Shown one piece after another: positions 3,326 to 57,344 of a DNA stretch of 64,000 bases. Positions within the stretch are counted from its first letter, which is position 1. The number at the start of each line of letters is the position of its first letter. The stretch comes from Alviniconcha marisindica. Taxonomy: Eukaryota; Mollusca; Gastropoda; Provannidae. The stretch covers positions 46,001 through 110,000 of the forward strand of contig JABMCL010003629.1 in assembly GCA_018857735.1 (NCBI GenBank), given 5' to 3'. The notes beneath the pieces were generated by a model that did not search any database, was not told where the DNA came from, and was given only the letters and a program-made list of their open reading frames with translations. A program made the translations under genes and the position numbers.

Positions 3326-5110
3326 CGCTTCTTGTCGGAGTGTCCCCGTCCTGTTGTATACTGAATACCTTCTGTTGAGTGTCCCCGTCCGGTTGTATAC
3401 TGAATACCTTCTGTTGAGTGTCCCCGTCCTGTTGTATACTGAATACCTTCTGTTGAGTGTCCCCGTCCTGGTGTATACTGAATACCTTCTGCTGAGTGTC
3501 CCCGTCCTGTTGTATACTGAATACCTTCTGTTGAGTGTCCCCGTCCTGTTGTATACTGAATACCTTCTGTTGAGTGTCCCCGCCCTGTTGTATACCGAAT
3601 ACCTTCTGTTGAGTGTCCCCGTCCTGTTGTATACTGAATACCTTCTGTTGAGTGTCCCCGTCCTGTTGTATACTGAATACCTTCTTGTCGGAGTGTCCCC
3701 GTCCTGTTGTATACTGAATACCTTCTTGTCGGAGTGTCCCAGTCCTGTTGTATACTGAATACCTTCTGTTGAGTGTCCCCGTCCTGTTGTATACTGAATA
3801 CCTTCTGTTGAGTGTCCCCGCCCTGTTGTATACTGAATACCTTCTGTTGAGTGTCCCCGCCCTGTTGTATACTGAATACCTTCTGTTGAGTGTCCCCGTC
3901 CGGTTGTATACTGAATACCTTCTGTTGAGTGCCCCCGTCCTGTTGTATACTGAATACCTTCTGTTGAGTGCCCCCGTCCTGTTGTATACTGAATACCTTC
4001 TGTTGAGTGCCCCCGTCCTGTTGTATACTGAATACCTTCTGTTGAGTGCCCCCGTCCTGTTGTATACTGAATACCTTCTGTTGAGTGTCCCCGTCCTGTT
4101 GTATACTGAATACCTTCTGTTGAGTGTCCCCGTCCGGTTGTATACTGAATACCTTCTGTTGAGTGTCCCCGTCCGGTTGTATACTGAATACCTTCTGTTG
4201 AGTGTCCCCCCCCTGTTGTATACTGAATACCTTCTGTTGAGTGTCCCCGTCCTGTTGTATACTGAATACCTTCTGTTGAGTGTCCCCGTCCTGTTGTATA
4301 CTGAATACCTTCTGTCGTGAGTGTCCCCGTCCTGTTGTATACTGAATACCTTCTGTTGAGTGTCCCCGTCCTGTTGTATACTGAATACCTTCTGTTGAGT
4401 GTCCCCGTCCTGTTGTATACTGAATACCTTCTGTTGAGTGTCCCCGCCCTGTTGTATACTGAATACCTTCTGTTGAGTGTCCCCGTCCGGTTGTATACTG
4501 AATACCTTCTGTTGAGTGTCCCCGTCCGGTTGTATACTGAATACCTTCTGTTGAGTGTCCCCGTCCTGTTGTATACTGAATACCTTCTGTTGAGTGTCCC
4601 CGTCCTGTTGTATACTGAATACCTTCTGTTGAGTGTCCCCGTCCTGTTGTATACTGAATACCTTCTGTTGAGTGTCCCCGTCCTGTTGTATACTGAATAC
4701 CTTCTGTTGAGTGTCCCCGTCCGGTTGTATACTGAATACCTTCTGTTGAGTGTCCCCGTCCTGTTGTATACTGAATACCTTCTGTTGAGTGCCCCCGTCC
4801 TGTTGTATACTGAATACCTTCTGTTGAGTGTCCCCGTCCTGTTGTATACTGAATACCTTCTGTTGAGTGTCCCCGTTCTGTTGTATACTGAATACCTTCT
4901 GTTGAGTGTCCCCGTCCTGTTGTATACTGAATACCTTCTGTCGAGTGTCCCCGTCCTGTTGTATACTGAATACCTTCTGTTGAGTGTCCCCGCCCTGTTG
5001 TATACTGAATACCTTCTGTTGAGTGTCCCCGTCCGGTTGTATACTGAATACCTTCTGTTGAGTGTCCCCGTCCTGTTGTATACTGAATACCTTCTGTTGA
5101 GTGTTTCCGC
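3326..5110 (+). repeat. 39-bp tandem array (about 45 copies)
   Basis: Highly regular unit with TGTTGTATACTGAATACC, TTCTGTTGAGTG and TCCCCGTCC. The last unit grades into the 40 bases before the acceptor of the next exon (GAGTGTTTCCGCTCCGTTAC...CTGAATTCC). Because 39 is divisible by 3, both strands carry frames of up to about 750 codons; these are not genes. Confidence 0.96.
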
Positions 5111-5148: not shown

Positions 5149-5302
5149 ATAGAAAACCTCCCCCAACCCTACGGGGACTGCGGCAGCCTGTCGTCTGCCT
5201 ACTACAGAGACTACTCCACAGACAACTGCCACCTGGCCTGTTTGACAGACTACATGCAGCGGGCGTGTGGCTGCAGACACCACTACATGCCTGACAGCAA
5301 CG
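5149..5302 (+). CDS. Gene A cysteine-rich extracellular exon (DEG/ENaC)
   Basis: The acceptor is CCATTGCAG ending at 5148; the donor is GTACGTGA at 5303. The exon enters in phase 0 and leaves with one base of a codon. It encodes 51 residues: IENLPQPYGDCGS, then a run with YYRDYSTDNCHLAC, then a CGCRHHYMP end. The PYG-C strand and the regularly spaced cysteines belong to the thumb/cysteine-rich part of DEG/ENaC channels. Compared with the gene B exon (145 nt) this one has three more codons (DSN) at its 3' end, next to a 25-bp array built from this same exon end. The flanking arrays carry no coding signal. Confidence 0.92.
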
Positions 5303-6520: not shown

Positions 6521-8700
6521 GGTCTACGTAATATGTGCGTTGGTCCTTTGCCGTTAGTGCTATTAAGGTCAATGAGTGTGCACATTGTCTCATCGATGGG
6601 CTCTATGTAATGTGTACGTCGTGTTGCTTTAGTGGTGATGGGGTCTATGTAATGTGTACGTCATATTGCTTTAGTGGTGATGGGGTCTACGTAATGTGTA
6701 CGTCATGTTGCCTTACTTTGTCTTACTGTTGATAGGGTCTATGTAATGTGTACGCTGTGTTGCCTTGCTGTTGATAAGGCCTATGTAATGTGTACGCTGT
6801 GTTGACTTACTGTTGATATGGTCTATCTAATGTGTAGATCGTGTTGCCTACTGTTGATAGGGTCTATGTAATGTGTACGCTGTGTTGCCTTACTGATGAT
6901 AGGGTCTATGTAATGTGTACATCGTGTTGCCTACTGTTGATAGAGTCTATATAATGTGTACCCTGTGTTCCCTTACTGTTGAAAAGGCCTATGTAATGGG
7001 TACGCTGTGTTGCCTTACTGTTGATAGGGTCTATGTAATGTGTACATCGTGTTGCCTTACTGTTGATAGGGTCTATGTAATGTGTACCCTGTGTTGCCTT
7101 ACTGTTGATAGGGTCTATGTAATGTGTACGCTGTGTTGTCTTACTTTGTCTCACTGTTGATAGGGTCTGTGTAGTGTGTACGCTTTGTTGCCTTACTTTG
7201 TCTTACAGTTGATAGGGTCTATGCAATGTGTACGCTGTGTTGTCTTACTTTGTCTTACTGTTGATAGTGTCTATGTAATGTGTACGTTGTGTTGCCTTAC
7301 TTTGTCTTACTGTTGATAGGGTCTATGTAATGTGTACGCTGTGTTGCCTTACTTTGTCTTACTGTTGATAGGGTCTATGCAATGTGTACGCTGTGTTGCC
7401 TTACTTTGTCTTACTGTTGATAGGGTCTATGTAATGTGTACGCTGTGTTGCCGTACCTTGTCTTACTGTTGACAGGGTCTGTGTAATGTGTACGCTGTCT
7501 TGTCTTACTGTTGATAGGGTCTATGTAATGTGTACGCTGTGTTGTGTTACTGTTGATAGGATCTATGAAATATGTACGCTGTATTGTGTTACTGTTGATA
7601 GGGTCTGTGTAATGTGTACGCTGTGTTGCCTTACTTTGTCTTACTGTTGATAGGGTCTGTGTAATGTGTACGATGTGTTGTGTTACAGTTGATAGGGTCT
7701 GTGTAATGTGTACGCTGTGTTGCCTTACTTTGTCTTACTGTTGATAAGGTCTGTGTAATGTGTACGCTGTGTTGTGTTACTGTTGATAGGGTCTATGTGA
7801 TGTGTACGCTGTGTTATCTTACTGTTGATAGGGTCTGTGTAACGTGTACGCTGTGTTGTGTTACTGTTGATAGGGTCTATGTAATGTGTACGCTGTGTTG
7901 CATTACTTTGTCTTACTGTCGATAGGGTCTATGAAATATGTACGCTGTGTTTGCCGTACTTTGTCTTACTGTTGACAGGGTCTGTGTAATGTGTACGCTG
8001 TGTTGCCTTACTTTGTCTTACTGTTGATACGGTCTATGTAATGTGTACGCTGTGTTGCCTTACTTTGTCTTACTGTTGACAGGGTCTGTGTAATGTGTAC
8101 GCTGTGTTGTGTTACTCTTGATAGGGTCTATGTGATGTGTACGCTGTGTTGTGTTACTGTTGATAGGGTCTGTGTAATGTGTACGCTGTGTTGTGTTACT
8201 GTTGATAGGGTCTGTGTAATGTGTACGCTGTGTTGCCTTACTTTGTCTTACTGTTGATAGGGTCTGTGTAATGTGTACGCTGTGTTGCCTTACTTTGTCT
8301 TACTGTTGATAGGGTCTGTGTAATGTGTACGCTGTGTTGCCTTACTTTGTCTTACTGTTGATAGGGTCTGTGTAATGTGTACGCTGTCTTGTCTTACTGT
8401 TGATAGGGTCTGTGTAATGTGTACGCTGTGTTGCTTTACTTTGTCTTACTGTTGATAGGGTCTGTGTAATGTGTACGCTGTGTTGCCTTACTTTGTCTTA
8501 CTGTTGATAGGGTCTGTGTAATGTGTACGCTGTCTTGTCTTACTGTTGATAGGGTCTGTGTAATGTGTACGCTGTGTTGCCTTACTTTGTCTTACTGTTG
8601 ATAGGGTCTATGAAATATGTACGCTGTATTGTGTTACTGTTGATAGGGTCTGTGTAATGTGTACGCTGTGTTGCCTTACTTTGTCTTACTGTTGATAGGG
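6520..8700 (+). repeat. 42/52-bp tandem array
   Basis: Long array related to the preceding one. Unit: TGTTGATAGGGTCTATG, TAATGTGTACGCTGTGTTG, with or without an extra 10 bases (CTTTGTCTTA). The 42- and 52-bp forms are interspersed. Confidence 0.94.
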
Positions 8701-8784
8701 GAACCACCAGTCTGCACACTGGAACAGTATTTCGGCTGCTACCTGAAAAAAATAAGTAGGTACTTTTTTGGCATTTAACCATGT

Positions 8785-9170: not shown

Positions 9171-9305
9171 TGATGGGCTGTCATCCCCGGTGTCGCTTTT
9201 ATTTTGAGAACGAAACGGACAATACATTTGGGGAAAGAAAGAACGTTCGAGCCGTCGTTTTATCTGACATTTAAAATAATTCAGTAAACTATTCTGATTG
9301 CGCAG

Positions 9306-10833
9306 ATTATATGAAAGAGAGAATTCGGAAGGAGTGCACCTGTCCGATTCCATGCTCCTTCCTGATCTTTGACCCCGCCCTCTCTTTCGCCACCACGTCC
9401 GCTTTCGCCACCGACCGGCTGCTGGCAGCAGCGTCACGGACCAGTGACCTGGAGACCAAGTACCTGCGTGCTATGGAGACGACACAGCGCATAGACCGGA
9501 TCAAGTTCCGGAGGTTTGTGGAGCTGGAGGAGGCGGCGCAGGGGCGACTGCGTCACCTGTCCACGCTGATGCTGCACACGGTGCGGGACTGCATCCTGCT
9601 GACGGAGACGACCGTCGGACGAGTGAGGCGTGGCGCTAGGGAGGCGTGGCAGCGCAAGGATCACCTGTACCGCTGGCAGGCGTTCCACGTGCTGAAGAAC
9701 TTCCTCAGGCCCAGAGACGCCATGGACGAGAGGACCTTCGGCGACCTCGTCAGGGGCTTCCAAGAGTTCGCCAACCGCACAGAGTCCCACATCTGGACCC
9801 TAGCAGACGCCGATGTCGCCTCGTCGAGCGTGAGAAAAACGCTGTACACGCTCGTCAGGGTGTCACTGAATGCCAAAATGGACCTATGCGACAGAGCTTT
9901 TGCCAACTACACACAACTGCATTCGGCATATTACAACGGCACACCAATATTTCGGTATAAATTCTTAAATGAACCACGAAACGACAACGTCTACCTAACA
10001 CCCAAGCTGCTTCTCCGAAATTCGTTGGTTCACTCTAGCTACGCCACCAAATACAGTAGGAGAGTTGGTGCGGACATTCTGACCTACAAGGCCGCTGTGT
10101 CCAGCTTCGCTTCGTTGGCTGCAAGTGCCTATAAGAACGGTTCGCTTGAGGCTGACGATATGCACCGTGCCGATGTGCGCTTTCTCTGGAGCGGCCGACG
10201 GTTCCTTCACAGCAAAAGTGTTTTTGACCACGAGTCCATCGACTTCCCGATGCGCGTGCTCCAGGACAGAATAGCGTCATTTGAAAGACTGTGGCGAAAT
10301 TACGAAACAGTTACTGAAGAAAGTTTGGGCATTATTGAGAGCTTGAAGGTGTCATTAGACAACTTAGAGAGTTCTATCCTCAAACGCCTCAACCACAGCA
10401 TGCAGATGGCCAGAGAGTATGTCACAGGTGGAAACGTCACCAAGTTGGAAATCGCCAGGGAACTGACCTCACAAAACATTTACGTTGGCATCAGTGACCT
10501 CAAAGTATTCTTTCAGTCCTTGCGGTCTCGGGGTCAGAATATTTATGACAACTGGGACAAAATGGCGGCGGCTGCGAACAAAATGTGGCAAGTCATCATT
10601 GAAGACGATGACATGATTGACTATTACTTCTACAAAAACCTGACTCAGTTTCTGCGTAACATGTCCGCGGTTGCCATGGAAACCAAGGAAGAGTATGAGG
10701 GCTACCGTCAGCAGTACGACTTCCGGTTCCTTGTTGGGAGCTGGGACAGCCTGTTCATGAAAAGCCTTGCAGACCTCATGTCTGAGATGGAATCCTACCT
10801 GAAGGCCAGCGTCATTGAAACGGACTTCATCAG
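9306..10833 (+). CDS. Gene A long exon: CxCxxPC motif plus ~450-residue helical insert
   Basis: The acceptor is TGATTGCGCAG ending at 9305; the donor is GTGAGC at 10834. The exon enters with two bases of a codon, leaves with two, and is open for all 1528 nt. It opens with DYMKERIRKE and CTCPIPCSFLIFDPALSF, the standard DEG/ENaC strand (compare C-C--PC in ASICs). In ASICs only about 45 residues separate this motif from the pre-TM2 strand; here about 490 intervene. The inserted part is rich in charged, heptad-like helices (for example FRRFVELEEAAQGRLRHL and YEGYRQQYDF). It has few cysteines and eight N-x-S/T sequons, as expected outside the cell. Blocks shared with gene B include RTFG, VRKT, NYTxL, G-PIF-YKF--EPR, SDLK-FF--LR-RGQ and a closing DFIR. 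The insert resembles no family I know. Confidence 0.88.
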
Positions 10834-10856
10834 GTGAGCGACCGTCCGTCTGGTTC

Positions 10857-13747: not shown

Positions 13748-13839
13748 GGACAACTTCCTGCAGCTGGATGTGTTTTACAGAGAGAAGAGTTACGAACAAA
13801 TCACACAGCAGATTGCATACGACGTGTTCGCTCTGCTGT
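13748..13839 (+). CDS. Gene A pre-TM2 exon (LDVFYRE...YEQITQQ)
   Basis: The acceptor is CTGCTTGCAG ending at 13747; the donor is GTGAGT at 13840. The first base completes an Arg codon begun in the long exon, and one base (T) is left for the next exon. It encodes DNFLQLDVFYREKSYEQI, then TQQIAYDVFALL. This is the last extracellular palm strand and linker leading into TM2, equivalent to ENILVLDIFFE..NYE in ASIC1. The homologous gene B exon is also 92 nt, so exon size and both intron phases are preserved. The spliced codon made with the next exon is TGT (Cys), at the degenerin position just before DIGG. Confidence 0.93.
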
Positions 13840-15589: not shown

Positions 15590-16203
15590 TTGCCGGTATC
15601 GGGGCCTACCTCGATAAACAACTCAAAGATAATGTCAGATCAAATCAACCACATCTGCAAAAGTATCTTCTTACAACTCCTACGCGTCAGTTCTATATTC
15701 ACCATCTTCTTGACGCTGCCGCAACAAAGAAACTTGTCCTTTCTCTTGTCCTTTCTCGCTTGGGCTACAGCAGTTCTCTCTTAGCCGGCCTTTCTTTTGC
15801 ACGTGATCAAAAGACTCCAGCACGTCCAAACCTGCGCAGCAAGATTAATACTGAGAGCACCCAGATTTGAACACACAAACACACTTCATTGGCTTCCGAT
15901 ACATGCACGCATTCTTTACAAACACAATTGTCTTGCTGTCCCTGCTATCAGCTTTGACACTCCATTCTACCTCTCTGACGTTTTACATCTATACCGTCCA
16001 TCCAGACATCTCCTCTCTTCTGAAGATACCCTCATACTGACTGTCCCGAAATCCAACTGCCAAACTAAAGGTGACCGCTCATTCTACTTTGCCTGTAAAT
16101 CAGCTAAATCATGGAACGCTCTCCCTTCAGACATCAGACATGCAAAAACGTCACAGATTAACAATCCTAACAGTTTTCTGAGAATGATCTGTCGCTACTG
16201 CAG

Positions 16204-16295
<92 letters not shown>

Positions 16296-16480
16296 GGACT
16301 GGTATTGTTATGTACAATTGCATATTATCTTAAGGGCATGTATGAGTGTGTTTATGCGTTTGTTTTATATTGCTTAATAGTATTGTATTGTTACCATATT
16401 ATAGTCTTGCATTACGTGAGGCGCTTAGAACGTGTATAGATTGGCGCCATAGAAATACCATTTTGATTTGATTTTGATAA
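15590..16480 (+). pseudogene. LINE (non-LTR retrotransposon) 3' end, reverse-transcriptase remnant
   Basis: Decayed C-terminal reverse-transcriptase region on the + strand. Recognisable pieces in shifting frames include SDQINHICKS, LSFARDQK-type text, IKRLQHVQTCAARLI, LHWLPIHARILYK, PFYLSDVLHLYRPSR and a closing SAKSWNALPSDIRH. These are the usual thumb/C-terminal motifs of L2/CR1-like LINEs. Downstream is a (GT)n run and then a tail with GAGGCGCTTAGA and GGCGCCATAGAAATACC, the kind of 3' terminus such LINEs and their SINEs share. Frameshifts and the missing catalytic core make it inactive. It lies in the last intron of gene A, in the sense direction. Confidence 0.8.
16206..16294 (+). repeat. 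(GT)n microsatellite, about 44 units
   Basis: Uninterrupted GT dinucleotides inside the LINE 3' region. Confidence 0.98.
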
Positions 16481-23848: not shown

Positions 23849-23967
23849 GTGACATCGGCGGTTCCATGGGGCTGTTTGTTGGAGCCAGCGTCTTGTCCAT
23901 TGGGGAACTGATCGACCTGTTTCTGCATCAGAGTATTTACCGTGTTACTCACAGAGCTGGGAACTAG
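23849..23967 (+). CDS. Gene A last coding exon: TM2, selectivity filter and stop
   Basis: The acceptor is TCAATGTTGCAG ending at 23848, and TAG is at 23965-23967. Two bases complete a Cys codon with the previous exon. The exon encodes DIGGSMGLFVGASVLSIGEL and then IDLF, the second membrane helix of DEG/ENaC channels. GAS is the selectivity-filter triplet and the E and D lie in the cytosolic half. Only about 14 residues follow (HQSIYRVTHRAGN), a very short cytosolic tail. The tail and stop codon sit in the first copy of the tandem repeat that continues downstream, so the present stop may have arisen from that expansion. An alternative downstream exon cannot be excluded, but gene B also ends soon after TM2. 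Confidence 0.9.
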
Positions 23968-28035: not shown

Positions 28036-29945
28036 CATCGCTTGAAACATATTAAAATTCTAAAACTTTGCATTTAAAACTGAAACAGCAGTGGGTATAA
28101 AAGATTTCTTATAAACATTCCTCTTTGCCAGTGGCACTTTCGGTCGTCGACCCGACGGCAGATGCTGAAAGCAAAAGTTAAGAGGATGCGTTTTGTCATG
28201 AAGGATCGAGAGTGACTTTCTACAGACAGAAAGATGGTACAGGTCACACAGTTGCTTTTGTTCAACTCCTATAATCCTGGTAGCCGTGTTGACGACTCGT
28301 GCCAGCCGAGCTCTGTTTTTAACTGACAGATACACAGACTCAAGGACATGGCTGCCGACTCCGAAGGTCCGTAGTTTCCTCAACAAGTACAAGCGCTGCT
28401 GTGCTTTCTTGTACACGTAGACTACGTTATCATTAAAACTTAGAGTCTACAACTGTAGCCAGGTACTTAATACTAATCACTACTTCCACAGATTGTTGAT
28501 CAGTTGTTACTGGAATAAATGGCTCCTTTTCTTTTCTACTGTCAAACACTAGTTCCTTCGTTTTTGAAACATTCAGATCAAAAAAACTTTCCTTGAACCA
28601 TGAGTTTAGAACATCTAACTGAAGAAAGTATTCTGCGAGACTGTTTTCGTCCTGGAGACGTGCAACCAAGGCCATGTCGTCAGCAAACTTCACGAGAGTT
28701 AGCAAGGCATTGGTAGATACTACTTCATTAGTATATACAGAAAACAAGACAGGCGAGAGAACCCCCCCCCCTGCGGAGCACCAGTATTCACAATTAGCTC
28801 ATCAGATCTTATTCCACTGAGGCTGACTCTCTGCGGCCGATCGCACAGGAACTGTTTAATCCAGAGGACAAGAGTGTGGTTAGCACCTAGATCCAAAGGC
28901 CTGTTAATAAGAAGATGGGGCTGAACCGTATTAATTTAAAGGCCGATGAGAAATCCATGAACATCACACGTACATATGATCCAGACTTATCAAGATGGCT
29001 TGCAATTAGGTTTACGAGAATCAGACATGCATCTTCAACACCCCGTCTGGCCTTGTAGGCAAACTGTAGAGGGTCCATGTGATCGGCCACAGAAGTAGCC
29101 AACTGGTTTCACACTATCCTGTCCATACACTTTGCCAGAATAAATGTCAAAGCCACAGGCCTGAAATCATTCATGAGTTTGACATTGGGTTTCTTTGGAA
29201 CTGGTATTATGATGGAGCTCTTCCACGCGCGTAGAACAGACATGCTATCCAGGAACAACTGAAACAGACGGGCAAACATTGGTCCCAGCTGCGGTGCGCA
29301 CACCTTGAGTACTCTACCCTTGAGGCCATCCGGACCTGGGACCTTGGAAGGGTTAAGTCTAGAAAAACATAAAATCACATCTCCCTCTTCCACGCACACC
29401 GGACTTCGGACCAGTGAGCGACAGACATTGTCACGTTCACTGCTGAAGTCAGTGACATCAAATCTGGCATAATACCTGTTCAACTCATTTGCAAAACCAC
29501 GTAGATCGTCTGTTTTGACAGTCTGTAGGATATTTTTCCTACCCATCATTGTATTCAACCCCCTCCATGCATCTTTTGCATTACCCACTTTGAGTTTTTC
29601 CTCCACTTTGTCTTTGTATGCGAGTTTGGCCAACTTTGCTTTCCTTCTGAACTCCTTGTCTAGTTCCCTCACCTCGGCCTTATCCCCTCTCGTAAATGCG
29701 TACTTCTTTTTGTTCGGATAGATTTTCAGTTCTTTGTTGTTGTCATCCATGGTTTATTGTTCGGAAAAATTCTGTCTTTGAGGTTATGACACATTCTTCA
29801 CAAAGCCGTAAGTAGTCAGTGAGAGTCTCAGCCAGCTCGTCGTGACTGGAACAACTGTCAAAGAACATCGACCATTCTGTTGACTCAAAACAACCCCTAA
29901 TTTTTGCAACTGCAGCAGTGCTGGCATTTGTACTGCTTCGCAATT
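27690..29945 (-). pseudogene. LINE (CR1/Rex1-like) reverse transcriptase, frameshifted
   Basis: On the - strand a nearly complete reverse-transcriptase module can be followed from 29943 down to 28060. It has an N-terminal linker (KTEFFRTINHG, then NKKKYAFTRGDKAEVRELDK) and the finger region (LNPSKVPGPDGLKGRVLK, then IIIPVPKKPNVKLMNDFRPV). The palm motif with the first catalytic Asp reads RVMFMDFSSAFK, followed by GAPQG and then the FADD box (VKFADDMALVARL). The C-terminal end has AQQRLYLLRKLRTFG and KSFIPTAVSVLNAKF. Frame breaks near 28900, at a C(10) tract near 28771 and near 29750 make it inactive. The 3' UTR toward 27690 has been invaded by poly-C and AC repeats. It lies between the two channel genes. 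Confidence 0.88.
27860..28033 (+). repeat. (C)21 tract, spacer, (AC)n microsatellite
   Basis: 21 C at 27860-27880, then a short spacer with CGCGCGCTCGCGCG, then about 38 AC units at 27958-28033. Confidence 0.97.
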
Positions 29946-37047: not shown

Positions 37048-37148
37048 CTAGTGTCTGTTGTGGTACTGGAAGCCGAAGAAGTCAAGCAGTTCAAAAATGG
37101 TCAGCACACTGGCTCCTAGAAACAGTCCCATAGAGCCTCCGATGTCAC
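37048..37148 (-). CDS. Gene B last coding exon: TM2, selectivity filter and stop
   Basis: The acceptor on the - strand is CTCTCTGTTGTAG ending at 37149, and TAG lies at 37050-37048. Two bases complete the Cys codon begun in the 92-nt exon. It encodes DIGGSMGLFLGASVLTIFEL, then LDFFGFQYHNRH. This is TM2 with the GAS filter and acidic residues in its inner half, followed by a cytosolic tail of only about 8-10 residues. It matches gene A over the helix and differs in the tail. The codon before DIGG (the degenerin position) is Cys, as in gene A. Sequence around the stop is similar to minisatellite units at 34935-35445 and 36885-37030. Confidence 0.92.
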
Positions 37149-39448: not shown

Positions 39449-39540
39449 ACAGAAGAGCGAAGATGCCGTAGGCTTCCTGCTGTGTGATCTGTTCGTAGTT
39501 CAGCTCACGGTAAAAGATGTTCAGGCGAAGAAAGTTGTTT
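39449..39540 (-). CDS. Gene B pre-TM2 exon (LNIFYRELNYEQITQQ)
   Basis: The acceptor on the - strand is TTTCTTCCAG at 39541-39550, and the donor GTAAGT begins at 39448. The 92 nt enter completing an Arg codon and leave one base (T). The exon encodes NNFLRLNIFYRELNYEQI, then TQQEAYGIFALL. This is the final extracellular strand and linker before TM2; L-N-I-F-Y-RELNYE is close to the ASIC consensus. Its size and both phases are identical to the gene A exon at 13748-13839. Confidence 0.93.
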
Positions 39541-39869: not shown

Positions 39870-41480
39870 ATGATAGACGATGAAACGAAATCTGGATCCT
39901 GACAGTGATTAATTTCTAGCTGACAAACGATATAATAAATTATGCATCGTGACAGTGAATAATTTCTAGCTGACAGACGACACAATGAATTCTGCATCGT
40001 GACAGTGAATAATTTCTAGCTGACAAGCGACAGAATGAATTCCGTATCGTGACAGTGATTAATTTCCAGCTGCCAGACGATACACTGAATTCAGTATCGT
40101 GACAGTGATTAATTTCTAGCTGACAGACGATACAATGAATTCCGTATCGTGACGGTGATTAATTTCTAGCTGACAGACGATAAAATGAATTCCGCATCGT
40201 GACAGTGATTAATTTCTAGCTGACAGACGATACAACGAATTCCGTATAGTGACAGGGATTAATTTGTAGCTGATAGACGATACAATGAATTCTGCATCGT
40301 GACGGTGATTGATTTGTAGCTGACAGACGATACAATGAATTCCGTATCGTGACGGTGATCAATTTGTAGCTGACAGACGAGACAATGAATTCCGTATCGT
40401 GACGGTGATCAATTTCTAGTTGACAGACGATACAATGAATTCCGTATCGTGACGGTGATTAATTTGTAGCTGACAGACGATAAAACGAATTCCGCATCGT
40501 GACGGTGATTAATTTGTAGCTGACAGACGATACAATGAATTCTGCATCGTGACGGTGATTGATTTGTAGCTGACAGACGATACAATGAATTCCGTATCGT
40601 GACGGTGATCAATTTGTAGCTGACAGACGATACAATGAATTCCGTATCGTGACGGTGATCAATTTCTAGTTGACAGACGATACAATGAATTCCGTATCGT
40701 GACGGTGATTAATTTGTAGCTGACAGACGATAAAACGAATTCCGCATCGTGACGGTGATTAATTTGTAGCTGACAGACGATACAATGAATTCTGCATCGT
40801 GACGGTGATTGATTTGTAGCTGACAGACGATACAATGAATTCCGTATCGTGACGGTGATCAATTTGTAGCTGACAGACGATACAATGAATTCCGTATCGT
40901 GACGGTGATCAATTTCTAGTTGACAGACGATACAATGAATTCCGTATCGTGACGGTGATTAATTTCTAGCTGACAGACGATAAAATGAATTCCGTATCGT
41001 GACGGTGATTAATTTCTAGTTGACAGACGATACAATGAATTCCGTATCGTGACGGTGATTAATTTGTAGCTGACAGACGATACAATGAATTCCGCATCGT
41101 GACGGTCATTAATTTCTAGCTGACAGACGATACAATGAATTCCGTATCGTGACGGTGATTAATTTGTAGCTGATAGACGATACAATGAATTCTGCATCGT
41201 GACGGTGATTAATTTGTAGCTGACAGACGATACAATGAATTCCGTATCGTGACAGTGATTAATTTGTAGCTGACAGACGATACAACGAATTCCGTATCGT
41301 GACGGTGATCAATTTGTAGCTGACAGACGTTACAATGAATTCCGTATCGTGACGGTTATCAATTTGTAGCTGACAGACGATAAAATGAATTCCGTATCGT
41401 GACGGTGATCAATTTCTAGCTGACAACAGTGATTAATTTCTAGCTGACAGACGATACAATGAATTCCGCATCGTGACAGT
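39870..41480 (+). repeat. 50-bp satellite (about 32 copies) with higher-order structure
   Basis: Unit: GACAGTGATTAATTTCTAGC, TGACAGACGATACAATGAAT, TCCGTATCGT. A block of five units recurs 250 bp apart: 40409-40612 and 40659-40862 are so alike that their translations are identical. The array lies in the intron between the long exon and the 92-nt exon of gene B. Confidence 0.96.
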
Positions 41481-42281: not shown

Positions 42282-43803
42282 CTGATGAAGTCGGCATCGA
42301 TCTGCCCAGTGTCTAGGAACCGCTGCATTTCAGACACCATGCCCCCGAGGGACAGCAAGAACTCGTCGTCATAGTTCTTGATGGCGTCACGAATGTCATC
42401 AGCTTTGTACTGGTCATAGTGGCCGTGCATGAGGTTGAGAGCGTCGATCAGGGTTCCTAGGTAGTTCCAGACGTTCTTGGCGCGGTAATAGGTCTGCAGG
42501 TTGGGGTCAGTAAGGCTGGCGTTGTACAGCCTCCGGCTGTGCCTCTCCAGTCTCACCCACAAGTCGTGCACCTCCTGTCCGCGTGTTCGCAACTCAGCGA
42601 AGAAGTTCTTGAGGTCACTCCGACCTACCTGCACCTGCGTGGAAACAAAGAAGCGCGCGATGCTTTTCTTGCTAACGCCGCCGTGACGCAGAAAGGCCTT
42701 GGACATGGCGAGTCCTTGAGCGACCTTGAAGAAGATCCCTTCCTGCAGGCCTCGCGCCAGCCTCGTCAAGCTGTCGATCTGCAGAGCCAAAGAATCGCGA
42801 TCAGCAGCGAACTCCCGCCAGTCGCTAGAGTAGCGGGCCAGGCGGTTCTCCAAGAAGGACAGCGAGTATCGTAGACCGTCGTTCAAAAACATATCGATGC
42901 TCTGCAGGTACTCTCTGCACGATTTTAAGAAGTAAACATTTGCACGCCACATAGAAGTAAGGTTGACCGCTTTGCTGCTGAAGGCTTCAATGGTCACGTT
43001 CCTATACAGGCTCAGGTTAGAAATAATGTTCTCAAGGTCTGTCCCCACTTTCGCTGATCGACGTCTTATGGCCCTGGTTCGATTCAGCGCCTCGTGGAAT
43101 AGGGGCAACGGCACGATGTAAATACTGTTCTTTCTCGGTTCCGTACGAAACTTGTAGTTGAATATCGGGCTTCCAGTCACTATGGCGTTGTACAGCTCCG
43201 TGTAGTTTTCCAAAGCTCTTTGGGCAATGTCTATTTTCCCATCGATTTCGTTTAAGGCGAGAAGGTAAACAGTTTTTCGGACGGCAGTATCGCCAAGGGA
43301 CGGATCAAGGAGTTGCTGAATCTTGTATTCTATGCTGTGCACGAACTCCTGCATGGCATTGGCCACAACACCAAACGTCCGTTCCGTCATGGCCTCAGCC
43401 GCCCGCACGAAGTCCTTCGCCACGATGAAGTGCTGGTATTGGAACAAATAGCGCGTTCTGTCGAACACTTCGTAGACGCGAGTCTCCATCATAGACAGGC
43501 CGTCCCGCTGGTTGGAAAGTTTCACCAAAATATCCTCCATGGAGTCATTCTGCAGCCTGTAAAACTTTGCTTCAAGGTCGTCCAAACTGCGCTGGAACAG
43601 TTGCCGTTTCTCACGCTGCAGTCTGTGTGTGATTTCCCTGGCGTGGTGGAACTTGGCAGCCAGGGTGGTTTTGTTGGCGTCAGCGAGGAACCGCTCCACC
43701 ACCAGAGGGGAGGCATCGGCATAGGACAAAACAGGGTCAAAAATCAGGAAGGAACAGGGCACTGGACAGTAGCATTCCTCAACAGTCCTCTGACGTAATA
43801 TGT
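42282..43803 (-). CDS. Gene B long exon: CxCxxPC motif plus ~450-residue helical insert
   Basis: The acceptor on the - strand is TTTCTGTTGCAG ending at 43804, and the donor GTGGGT begins at 42281. The 1522 nt enter with two bases of a codon, leave with two, and are open throughout. The start ILRQRTVEE, CYCPVPCSFLIFDP matches the DEG/ENaC CxCxxPC strand. The insert follows, with amphipathic, charged helices (for example EITHRLQREKRQLFQRSL and LEAKFYRLQNDS), one cysteine and eight N-x-S/T sequons. Blocks shared with gene A are TERTFG, VRKT, ENYTEL, GSPIFNYKFRTEPRK, SDLKNFFAELRTRGQ and ADFIR. Identity elsewhere looks low. So the insert is old and selection has kept it open in both copies. No annotated domain is recognised in it. 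Confidence 0.88.
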
Positions 43804-44984: not shown

Positions 44985-45260
44985 TTATATTAATAGATAG
45001 CAACCGCACCACAGCCATAGAATGCACTCATACTTCCCTTTGGTAGATAGCAACTACACTACTACCGTATTATACAGACTTGTTCCTTTTGGTACATAGC
45101 AACTTTACCACTGCCACAGTATGCGCACTTAGTGTCTTTGATAGTTAGCAACTTTACCTCTGCCACTGTATGCGCACTTACTTCTTTTGGAAACTTCAAC
45201 TGTTCCGCTGCCATAACATGCACGTGCACTTACTTCTCTTTGGTAGGTAGCATCCGTAAT
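44985..45260 (+). repeat. Degenerate ~65-70-bp repeat
   Basis: Four imperfect copies around TTTGGTAGATAGCAACTACA, CTGCCACAGTATGCGCACTT and similar text. Confidence 0.7.
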
Positions 45261-46200
45261 ACTGCCAGAGAGTACACACTGGGGTCTGTCCTGCAACACG
45301 TATTTCACAGCAATGTTTGTTTAACGCCGTCAGCAGAATTAACGTTTCGCCAGGTTCTGAGAAACGAACGCCATTAGCCTATCATGAGACACATCTTTCG
45401 ACAATCCGACAACTCGAAATCAGTTGTTTTCTGCAATCGGTGAACAAATTACGTGACTTGATAGAACGGTTCAGGAAAGACCAAGGGCGTCACGGTTTTT
45501 TAGATGGTGCAACGAATGGTAATTAGCGATAGCTGCAGTCTATTCTAAAGCAACAATTTGTTCAATCACTGACAAAACTGCCGAATGTTTTTGGAAACTT
45601 TTCACCTTACTGACGTAATGATGTTTGGGAAATGTTACGATAACGGCAAATGGTCACTATCGTCTTTTAGTAGGCTAACCAGTTAGCCAATAGCAGACGA
45701 CGGCTCTGGGTGGGCAAGCGCACTAAAGACCTATCAATTGTACTTTCCCTGTGAACACGTGTTGCGTCTCGATCATTGTACGCGGTTGTAGCACTAAGTA
45801 ACCGTGAAGTTTGTTTTCTAAACCAACGACACAAACTACTGTCCTCTGCTTTTGCCGAAGCGATAGCTGGTAGGGCAAATAAAACTGAAATAAAGGCGCC
45901 GCCTCGTTTTTGTCGCTGTTTCCAACACGTCTCCTGGCAGCACATTAATACTTTGCGTCTATTTATAGATTTGTCGGAGGCACGTCACTGAGTAGGCGTA
46001 GCTATCTCCTGGCGACACGTTAATGACAAAGCAAAAGTTATACTCCAATACATAAATCAGTGCGTGCGCGTGCGCACGTTTGTGTGTGTTTTTGTTGTTT
46101 TAAAACAGCACACCTTTTAGTAGGACATAGCAAGACAATAGGACACAGACATAATTCTTTTATTCTCACATGCAAATGTACGAAGAATATTTTTAGTGTT
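45260..46200. other. Gene B intron, nothing recognised
   Basis: No exon with family resemblance, no tandem structure and no clear transposon. TTGTGTGTGTTTTTGTTG at about 46080 is only low complexity. Confidence 0.5.
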
Positions 46201-47509: not shown

Positions 47510-47654
47510 CTGGCATGTAAAACAGCTTGCAGTCGCAGAGCTGCACCAGCAATCTGGCGGCGCACTCTGACTCACAGTTGGCTGTTCCATAGTGGGAATA
47601 ATGGCTGAGGGTCGGGGAGTCGCATTCTCCGTGAGGGGGTGGCAGGTTGTGTAC
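47510..47654 (-). CDS. Gene B cysteine-rich extracellular exon (DEG/ENaC)
   Basis: The acceptor on the - strand is CCCAATCTGTCCAG ending at 47655, and the donor GTATAT begins at 47509. The 145 nt enter in phase 0 and leave one base, like the gene A exon at 5149-5302. It encodes VHNLPPPHGECDSPTLSHYS, then HYGTANCESECAARLLVQLC, then DCKLFYMP. The spacing of P-GEC, NC-SEC and CDC fits the DEG/ENaC cysteine-rich/thumb segment, although it is diverged. It lies between an AC repeat on its 3' side and a 48-bp array on its 5' side, and the frame is masked on that strand by poly-(VC) frames from the microsatellite. Confidence 0.88.
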
Positions 47655-51470: not shown

Positions 51471-51652
51471 AGAAACAAGCTTGATGGCCATGAAGGAGTG
51501 GACCCCTGCTGACAAAGCTTGACCCAGCGCGTGGACTTTGGGGAACTCATTTCTGTCATGCAGCAATATCTTCACCCCGGCTGCGTCATGAGGTCCAGGC
51601 ATGTATTCATACTGCTCCACGTTCAGCATCAGAGACAGTCCCTCTTCGGCAC
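51471..51652 (-). CDS. Gene B exon encoding the NVEQYEYMPG extracellular segment
   Basis: The acceptor on the - strand is ACTCCACAG ending at 51653, and the donor GTGAGT begins at 51470. The 182 nt enter with two bases completing a Gly codon and end on a codon boundary, identical in size and phase to gene A exon 40-221. It encodes GAEEGLSLMLNVEQYEYMPG, then PHDAAGVKILLHDRNEFPKV, ending IKLVS. G---GL-L-LN-EQYEYM is a signature of the DEG/ENaC extracellular domain. Both splice sites are embedded in tandem arrays whose units copy the junction. Confidence 0.94.
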
Positions 51653-57060: not shown

Positions 57061-57099
57061 TGTTTACCTTTAAGCTGTTATTTAGTGTAAGACACACAC

Positions 57100-57209
57100 C
57101 TGCTGAATTGACGGACCAATTCCTGTTGTCGAGTGTGTAGCAAATGCCGTGGTCAGTGAACACAAGCTGAAAGTTGTCTGGCCCGCATTTCCGTCCCCTC
57201 CACCGACAG
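57100..57209 (-). CDS. Gene B exon with CRWRGRKC and FTDHGICYTL motifs (DEG/ENaC)
   Basis: The acceptor on the - strand is TTTTTATGTTATTAG ending at 57210, and the donor GTGTGT begins at 57099. The 110 nt enter with one base of a codon and leave one base, a G that completes GGT with the next exon at 51652. It encodes CRWRGRKCGPDNFQLVFTDH, then GICYTLDNRNWSVNSA and G. C-x-W-x-G-x-x-C followed by F----T--G-CYT-N is diagnostic of DEG/ENaC extracellular domains, and the splice restores the expected NSAG-AEEGL text. It is the most 5' exon of gene B found; the exon with TM1 should precede it to the right. Its 3' end has been duplicated downstream into an array. Confidence 0.88.
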
Positions 57210-57344
57210 CTAATAACATAAAAATGCATCATGTTAGAATCACTTGGTCACCCACTGGTCAGTCGATATTTGGAATGCTAAAAGTTGAATGTAGTAAAAT
57301 AGGCCTATCAATAACGTCTGAAACAGAATCATAATAGAAATAGT

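Follow-up and report, generated by a model that had tools for sequence, protein, structure and literature searches.

The extracellular domains of DEG/ENaC channels set the stimulus that opens them, whether protons, peptides or force, and the family is defined by a CxCxxPC end and a GxS motif in TM2. Extra extracellular sequence occurs within the family in the C. elegans EGF-ASIC chimeras (EGAS) and in the degenerin regulatory domain; these additions are EGF repeats or short segments elsewhere in the chain, with no large helical domain at the knuckle.

In ASICs, the extracellular domain usually comprises about 300 residues, according to passages of a 2023 eLife study (PMC9949801). The same passages name spiralians in which no ASIC is reported, Acanthopleura granulata and Crassostrea gigas among them, and infer a loss in molluscs; the word “gastropod” is absent from the main text as available. 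A wrist histidine, H73, is described in excerpts of PMC10507113 as critical in proton activation of ASICs. Several reports bear on the knuckle: parts of PMC6827283 describe the three knuckles of chick ASIC1 as meeting at the upper vestibule, implicate the knuckle in ENaC sodium self-inhibition, and note insertions between the two knuckle helices of Trichoplax TadNaC, described there as predicted loops. In alpha-ENaC, the glycosylated knuckle asparagine N511 matters for the response to shear force (passages of PMC7958617). In the FMRFamide-gated channels of gastropods and annelids (FaNaC), likewise spiralian DEG/ENaC proteins, the knuckle helix alpha6 contributes to the FMRFamide pocket together with the neighbour’s finger, and in FaNaC1 it is relatively static during gating (sections of PMC11026163).

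Here we analyze a 64,000-nt stretch of the Alviniconcha marisindica genome (hereafter the window) that encodes two DEG/ENaC channels with a long insert ahead of TM2. The insert is a real, conserved and apparently undescribed domain of a known channel family. Its roughly 450 residues outnumber those of a usual extracellular domain, about 300 by the ASIC figure in passages of PMC9949801, and it is found in nine named gastropod species from four subclasses.

Exon structure of two convergent channel genes

Exon chains were predicted from the genomic sequence by splice sites, homology and open reading frame. Gene 1, on the plus strand, begins in the window with an exon of the DEG/ENaC extracellular part at 40-221 (SDYGLKLTLNVEQ...GIQLVQ; ASC match of 3.6e-11 for the ORF, and 86% identity to the Batillaria attramentaria protein P0005 by tblastn). 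The cysteine-rich part follows at 5149-5302 (IENLPQPYGDC...CGCRHHYMPDSN; ASC match of 2.7e-11 for the ORF), and then a small in-frame exon of phase 1/1 at 8699-8755 (GEPPVCTLEQYFGCYLKKI), which encodes the conserved CTLEQYFGC piece and was located with gastropod proteins by tblastn at 8698-8760. The insert exon, at 9306-10833, starts a few codons before CTCPIPC, completes this channel segment (CTCPIPC...SFATTS), continues through the roughly 450-residue helical insert and ends with DFIR. It is open in a single frame (ORF 9275-10837), and by tblastn it is 60% identical to P0005 and 62% identical to a Littorina protein, P0004. An exon leading toward TM2 lies at 13748-13839 (DNFLQLDVFYREKSYEQITQQIAYDVFALLC), recovered by tblastn and matching positions 401-433 of the ASC profile with an E-value of 0.0013, which alone is below the cut-off. 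These five exons are each bounded by AG and GT; the last, at 23849-23967, has an AG acceptor and encodes TM2, its GAS motif and the stop codon (87% identity to P0005 by tblastn).

Joined, the six exons (182, 154, 57, 1528, 92 and 119 nt) encode 709 residues with no internal stop, and the product matches PF00858 at 9.5e-54 (183.6 bits, against a curated cut-off of 23.6) in two stretches that flank the insert. The original prediction of an uninterrupted 1528-nt exon, in frame with a DEG/ENaC channel, is borne out. Its splice chain held the frame but passed directly from 5149-5302 to 9306, skipping the exon at 8699-8755, and missed the TM2 exon at 23849-23967; the frame survived the skipped exon because 57 is a multiple of three. 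TM1 exons of either gene were not found within the window, and further 5′ exons of gene 1, including the TM1 part, must lie upstream of it.

A tblastn search with gastropod relatives revealed a further insert-bearing DEG/ENaC gene, gene 2, at 37048-57217 on the minus strand, convergent with gene 1. Its exons, all located by tblastn on that strand, are the counterpart of gene 1’s exon 40-221 at 51471-51652 (182 nt), a cysteine-rich exon at 47510-47654 (145 nt), a small exon at 45234-45290 (57 nt), the insert exon at 42282-43803 (1522 nt; 33% identity to P0005, E 3.8e-86), an exon toward TM2 at 39449-39540 (92 nt), and a last exon at 37048-37148 (101 nt) with TM2, the GAS motif and the stop codon. 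The last has an AG acceptor and the other five are bounded by AG and GT. A probable further 5′ exon at 57080-57217 on the minus strand (CRWRGRKCGPDNFQLVFTDHGICY; tblastn E 4.6e-9 to 6.6e-8 with P0005, P0006 and P0012), whose splice sites are not fixed, stands outside the joined frame. The six joined exons encode 698 residues with no internal stop and match PF00858 at 1.3e-51, again in two stretches. Both joined proteins possess the CxCxxPC end (CTCPIPC in gene 1, CYCPVPC in gene 2) and GAS in TM2.

Exon order and intron phases are identical in the two genes. Their products are 53% identical before the insert, about 31-33% within it and 70% after it, with faster evolution in the insert than in the channel part. 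A pseudogene is ruled out by the six exons intact in frame in each gene. The length of an open reading frame alone is weak evidence here, because chance ORFs reaching 762 codons arise from minisatellites in the window; homology decides that the insert exon is real, with 17 matching database proteins, and together with the splice plan it rules out a chance ORF.

Gastropod relatives and conservation of the insert

The 17 proteins that carry the insert were collected by three word-based searches, in which 7996, 7993 and 606 candidates were scored. All 12 that bear a species name are from gastropods, representing nine species: Littorina saxatilis, Plakobranchus ocellatus, Babylonia areolata and Patella vulgata (one each), Batillaria attramentaria (four models), Elysia chlorotica and Elysia marginata (two together), and Haliotis rubra and Haliotis cracherodii (two together). 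No insert was seen outside gastropods among the species-named matches, which is weak evidence of absence given word-based searches. By taxonomy look-up, Babylonia belongs to Caenogastropoda, Patella to Patellogastropoda, Haliotis rubra to Vetigastropoda and Elysia chlorotica to Heterobranchia; this presence in four subclasses implies an insert older than their split. The species-named rows closest to gene 1 are those of Babylonia (65% identity) and Littorina (63%), both caenogastropods.

PF00858 is present in the precomputed annotation of 11 of the 17 proteins. Five of the remaining six look like exon-sized ORFs, and the sixth is the Elysia model P0013, whose start is apparently mis-joined. 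The carriers are deposited as hypothetical protein, uncharacterized protein, acid-sensing ion channel 4 or amiloride-sensitive cation channel 4-B. Full-text literature searches, whose scope excluded most subscription journals, returned no published description of the insert. Thus, of the novelty originally proposed, the lack of a named domain or paper stands, but the insert is not unique to the Alviniconcha genome, since copies sit in databases under generic names.

We aligned 13 of the 17 database proteins with both window genes over the block that starts at the final cysteine of CxCPxPC and runs to DFIR or the residues equivalent to it. Left out of these 15 rows were two incomplete Elysia models, P0012 and P0013, which cover 396 and 273 residues of the block, along with Batillaria P0007 and P0010, partial duplicates of P0005 and P0006. 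The 13 database proteins are 33-95% identical to gene 1. Block length is nearly constant, at 492-494 residues in 13 of 15 rows, with 505 in Plakobranchus and 457 in Batillaria P0006, a gapped model. Of 493 columns, 42 are invariant, many of them charged or polar (for example R119, E126, R127, R391, R393 and Q395). The gene 1 insert has few cysteines and eight glycosylation sequons, as originally predicted; the sequon at 185 is present in 15/15 rows, and those at 195 and 361 in 13/15. Five database sequences (P0001-P0003, P0009 and P0011) end at or just beyond the same exon end, which suggests from sequence that the insert is a single exon in these as well. In a tree of the insert, gene 2, P0009 and P0011 fall on long, unsafe branches, and the age of the duplication is not datable from it.

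Fold, position and possible role of the insert

AlphaFold predicts the insert, from 17 sequences, as a confident all-helical single domain (pLDDT 88.6, pTM 0.75), the longest helices comprising 85 and 61 residues. The same helices recur in a separate full-length model, in which the channel core is poor (mean pLDDT 66.6; 296 of 966 residues below 50); because of this low-confidence core, the orientation of the arm is not readable from the model, and the outer-rim projection originally proposed is conjectural. The hydrophobic period of nine predicted helices lies between 3.48 and 3.70 (scan range 3.3-4.0), and the conserved stretch from NYTQL to FRYKF departs from helix after position 195. Helices had been expected from sequence and described as heptad-like: their presence agrees with the model, but the measured periods and the single confident domain do not point first to a simple coiled coil. 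No named domain matched in a Pfam scan of the insert exon, in keeping with the earlier expectation, and Foldseek returned no match for the insert at E up to 0.001. Talin, chemoreceptor ligand domains, tweety channels and other helical rows were rejected as fold relatives at that same threshold (no E ≤0.001); their structural Z-scores lie in the tool’s “possible” range for helical bundles, and a relation may still exist. Weak matches to COG2_C, DUF244, Nup54, COG3_N and Sec10_N were judged to be helical-composition noise, and an internal duplication was likewise discarded (first versus second half, hhalign probability 1.2%).

Full-length relatives locate the insert within the channel. The alignment to ASIC2 starts at residue 83 of the Babylonia protein P0015 and at residue 59 of the Haliotis protein P0016, runs through the TM1 region, and falls into two stretches in each: residues 83-415 and 888-953 of P0015 match ASIC2 21-377 and 392-457, and the two stretches of P0016 are 59-394 and 868-929. 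The step between stretches is 473 residues in P0015 against 15 in ASIC2, giving a net insert of about 458 residues. P0015 also matches PF00858 in two stretches (1.2e-93). The site, after the CxCPxPC end and ahead of the strand that precedes TM2, is the one originally proposed, and we take the interrupted stretch to correspond to the two knuckle helices of ASIC1. By analogy with DEG/ENaC topology, the insert is expected to be extracellular.

By sequence, the closest solved channels are ASIC1 and ASIC2 of DEG/ENaC clade A (ASIC2 matches P0015 at 4.4e-59 and P0016 at 1.9e-64), which have the extracellular motif order and GAS in TM2 in common with the insert channels. ASIC1 is also the best Foldseek match of the full model (5.2e-11), although the TM-score is low (0.20 by query, 0.41 by target). 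Pairwise scores against P0015 are 203.6 bits for ASIC2, 160.2 for ASIC5, 118.1 for ENaC beta and 101.3 for FaNaC (3.7e-28 over a 679-residue chain, weaker than the ASICs); best scores to ASICs are alone indecisive, because slow-evolving families tend to score best. In the ASIC2 alignment, the position we take to be that of H73 is a valine in both P0015 and P0016; the window yielded no exon covering this region. We therefore describe the genes, on sequence grounds, as ASIC-like DEG/ENaC channels and do not class them as ASICs. Trichoplax TadNaC has its insertion at the same site, in the form of predicted loops (parts of PMC6827283), in contrast to the confidently predicted helical domain of the gastropod channels.

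We regard it as close to certain that ASIC-like DEG/ENaC subunits of gastropods possess a conserved, all-helical extracellular domain of about 450 residues that predates the subclass split. As a whole, the findings are probably best explained by a helical arm at the knuckle on which partner docking biases gating. In such a channel, the trimer would carry three helical arms above the channel, each of which could dock a partner outside the cell, be it a secreted ligand, a protein of the matrix or membrane, or the arms of adjacent subunits. Binding would shift the knuckle against the adjacent finger, and this shift would bias the opening of an otherwise ordinary DEG/ENaC pore. A passive loop is unlikely, because the insert is fixed in length, confidently folded, placed at the knuckle and older than the subclass split. 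Taken on its own, the proposal that the arm is a docking surface acting on gating is plausible but tentative. The 33% identity between the two inserts would also fit, at the sequence level, a spacer under modest constraint, and the conserved residues may simply hold the fold. Coupling through the knuckle is further weakened by the relatively static alpha6 of FaNaC1 (sections of PMC11026163).

A close rival is a mechanical tether, in which the glycosylated arm ties the channel to extracellular matrix or cuticle and strain opens the pore (force-from-filament). The conserved sequons, the very long helices and insertion at the knuckle, where the N511 glycan site of alpha-ENaC matters for the shear response (passages of PMC7958617), all suit a tether; no matrix-binding domain was matched in Pfam, however, and the high model confidence, fixed length and 42 invariant columns exceed what a plain linker needs, leaving this reading possible but somewhat doubtful. 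The arms might instead touch above the vestibule as a structural cap and serve not sensing but subunit assembly, trafficking or the choice of heteromer, and a single heteromer could contain both convergent paralogues. Convergence of the three knuckles at the upper vestibule of chick ASIC1 (parts of PMC6827283) and the near-equal insert length in both genes speak for a cap, but the gene 2 insert has diverged to 31-33% identity, and we consider a cap unlikely. It is highly improbable that the exon is partly a retained intron or a gene-model error absent from the mature protein. Minisatellites that generate long chance ORFs fill the window, but four subclasses and the paralogue all keep the insert in frame, and a single exon holds both the final cysteine of CxCPxPC and the DFIR end; moreover, both insert exons are 3n+1 nt long, so that skipping either exon whole would shift the frame.

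A conserved arm acting in partner docking or as a tether could put the channel under the control of an external partner or force, and the insert channels offer a concrete test system for which stimulus the arm serves. More speculatively, they may represent a gastropod DEG/ENaC class gated via a new extracellular helical sensory arm at the knuckle, whose fold would be a first for this channel family, possibly as a two-paralogue heteromer and perhaps as a retained ASIC lineage. The gastropod channels bear on the ASIC loss in molluscs inferred in passages of PMC9949801: if this doubtful reading were true, an ASIC lineage could have been retained in a phylum reported as ASIC-less.

Gene models and repeats

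Annotated models of insert-bearing channels look unreliable at the 57-nt exon and in the insert: P0007 (Batillaria BaRGS_021703) is without the residues of the 57-nt exon, just like the splice chain originally proposed for gene 1, and P0006 is without 38 residues of the insert. The Elysia marginata protein P0013 (358 aa), named amiloride-sensitive cation channel 4-B, has an N-terminal part that looks reverse-transcriptase-like, fused to the start of the insert exon, and is probably a gene-model error. P0009 and P0011 are diverged insert exons (29-38% and 24-34% identity to other rows) that may represent additional paralogues or derive from other molluscs.

Within the window, ORFs at 29109-29753 (minus strand) and 15785-16330 (plus strand) look by eye like fragments of LINE reverse transcriptase; the latter matched nothing in Pfam at E up to 0.1. 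Minisatellites crowd the introns of both genes (106 TRF rows at a score of at least 200 across positions 1-64000); examples are a 39-nt unit in about 45 copies at 3338-5104 and a 50-nt unit in about 31 copies at 39871-41425.
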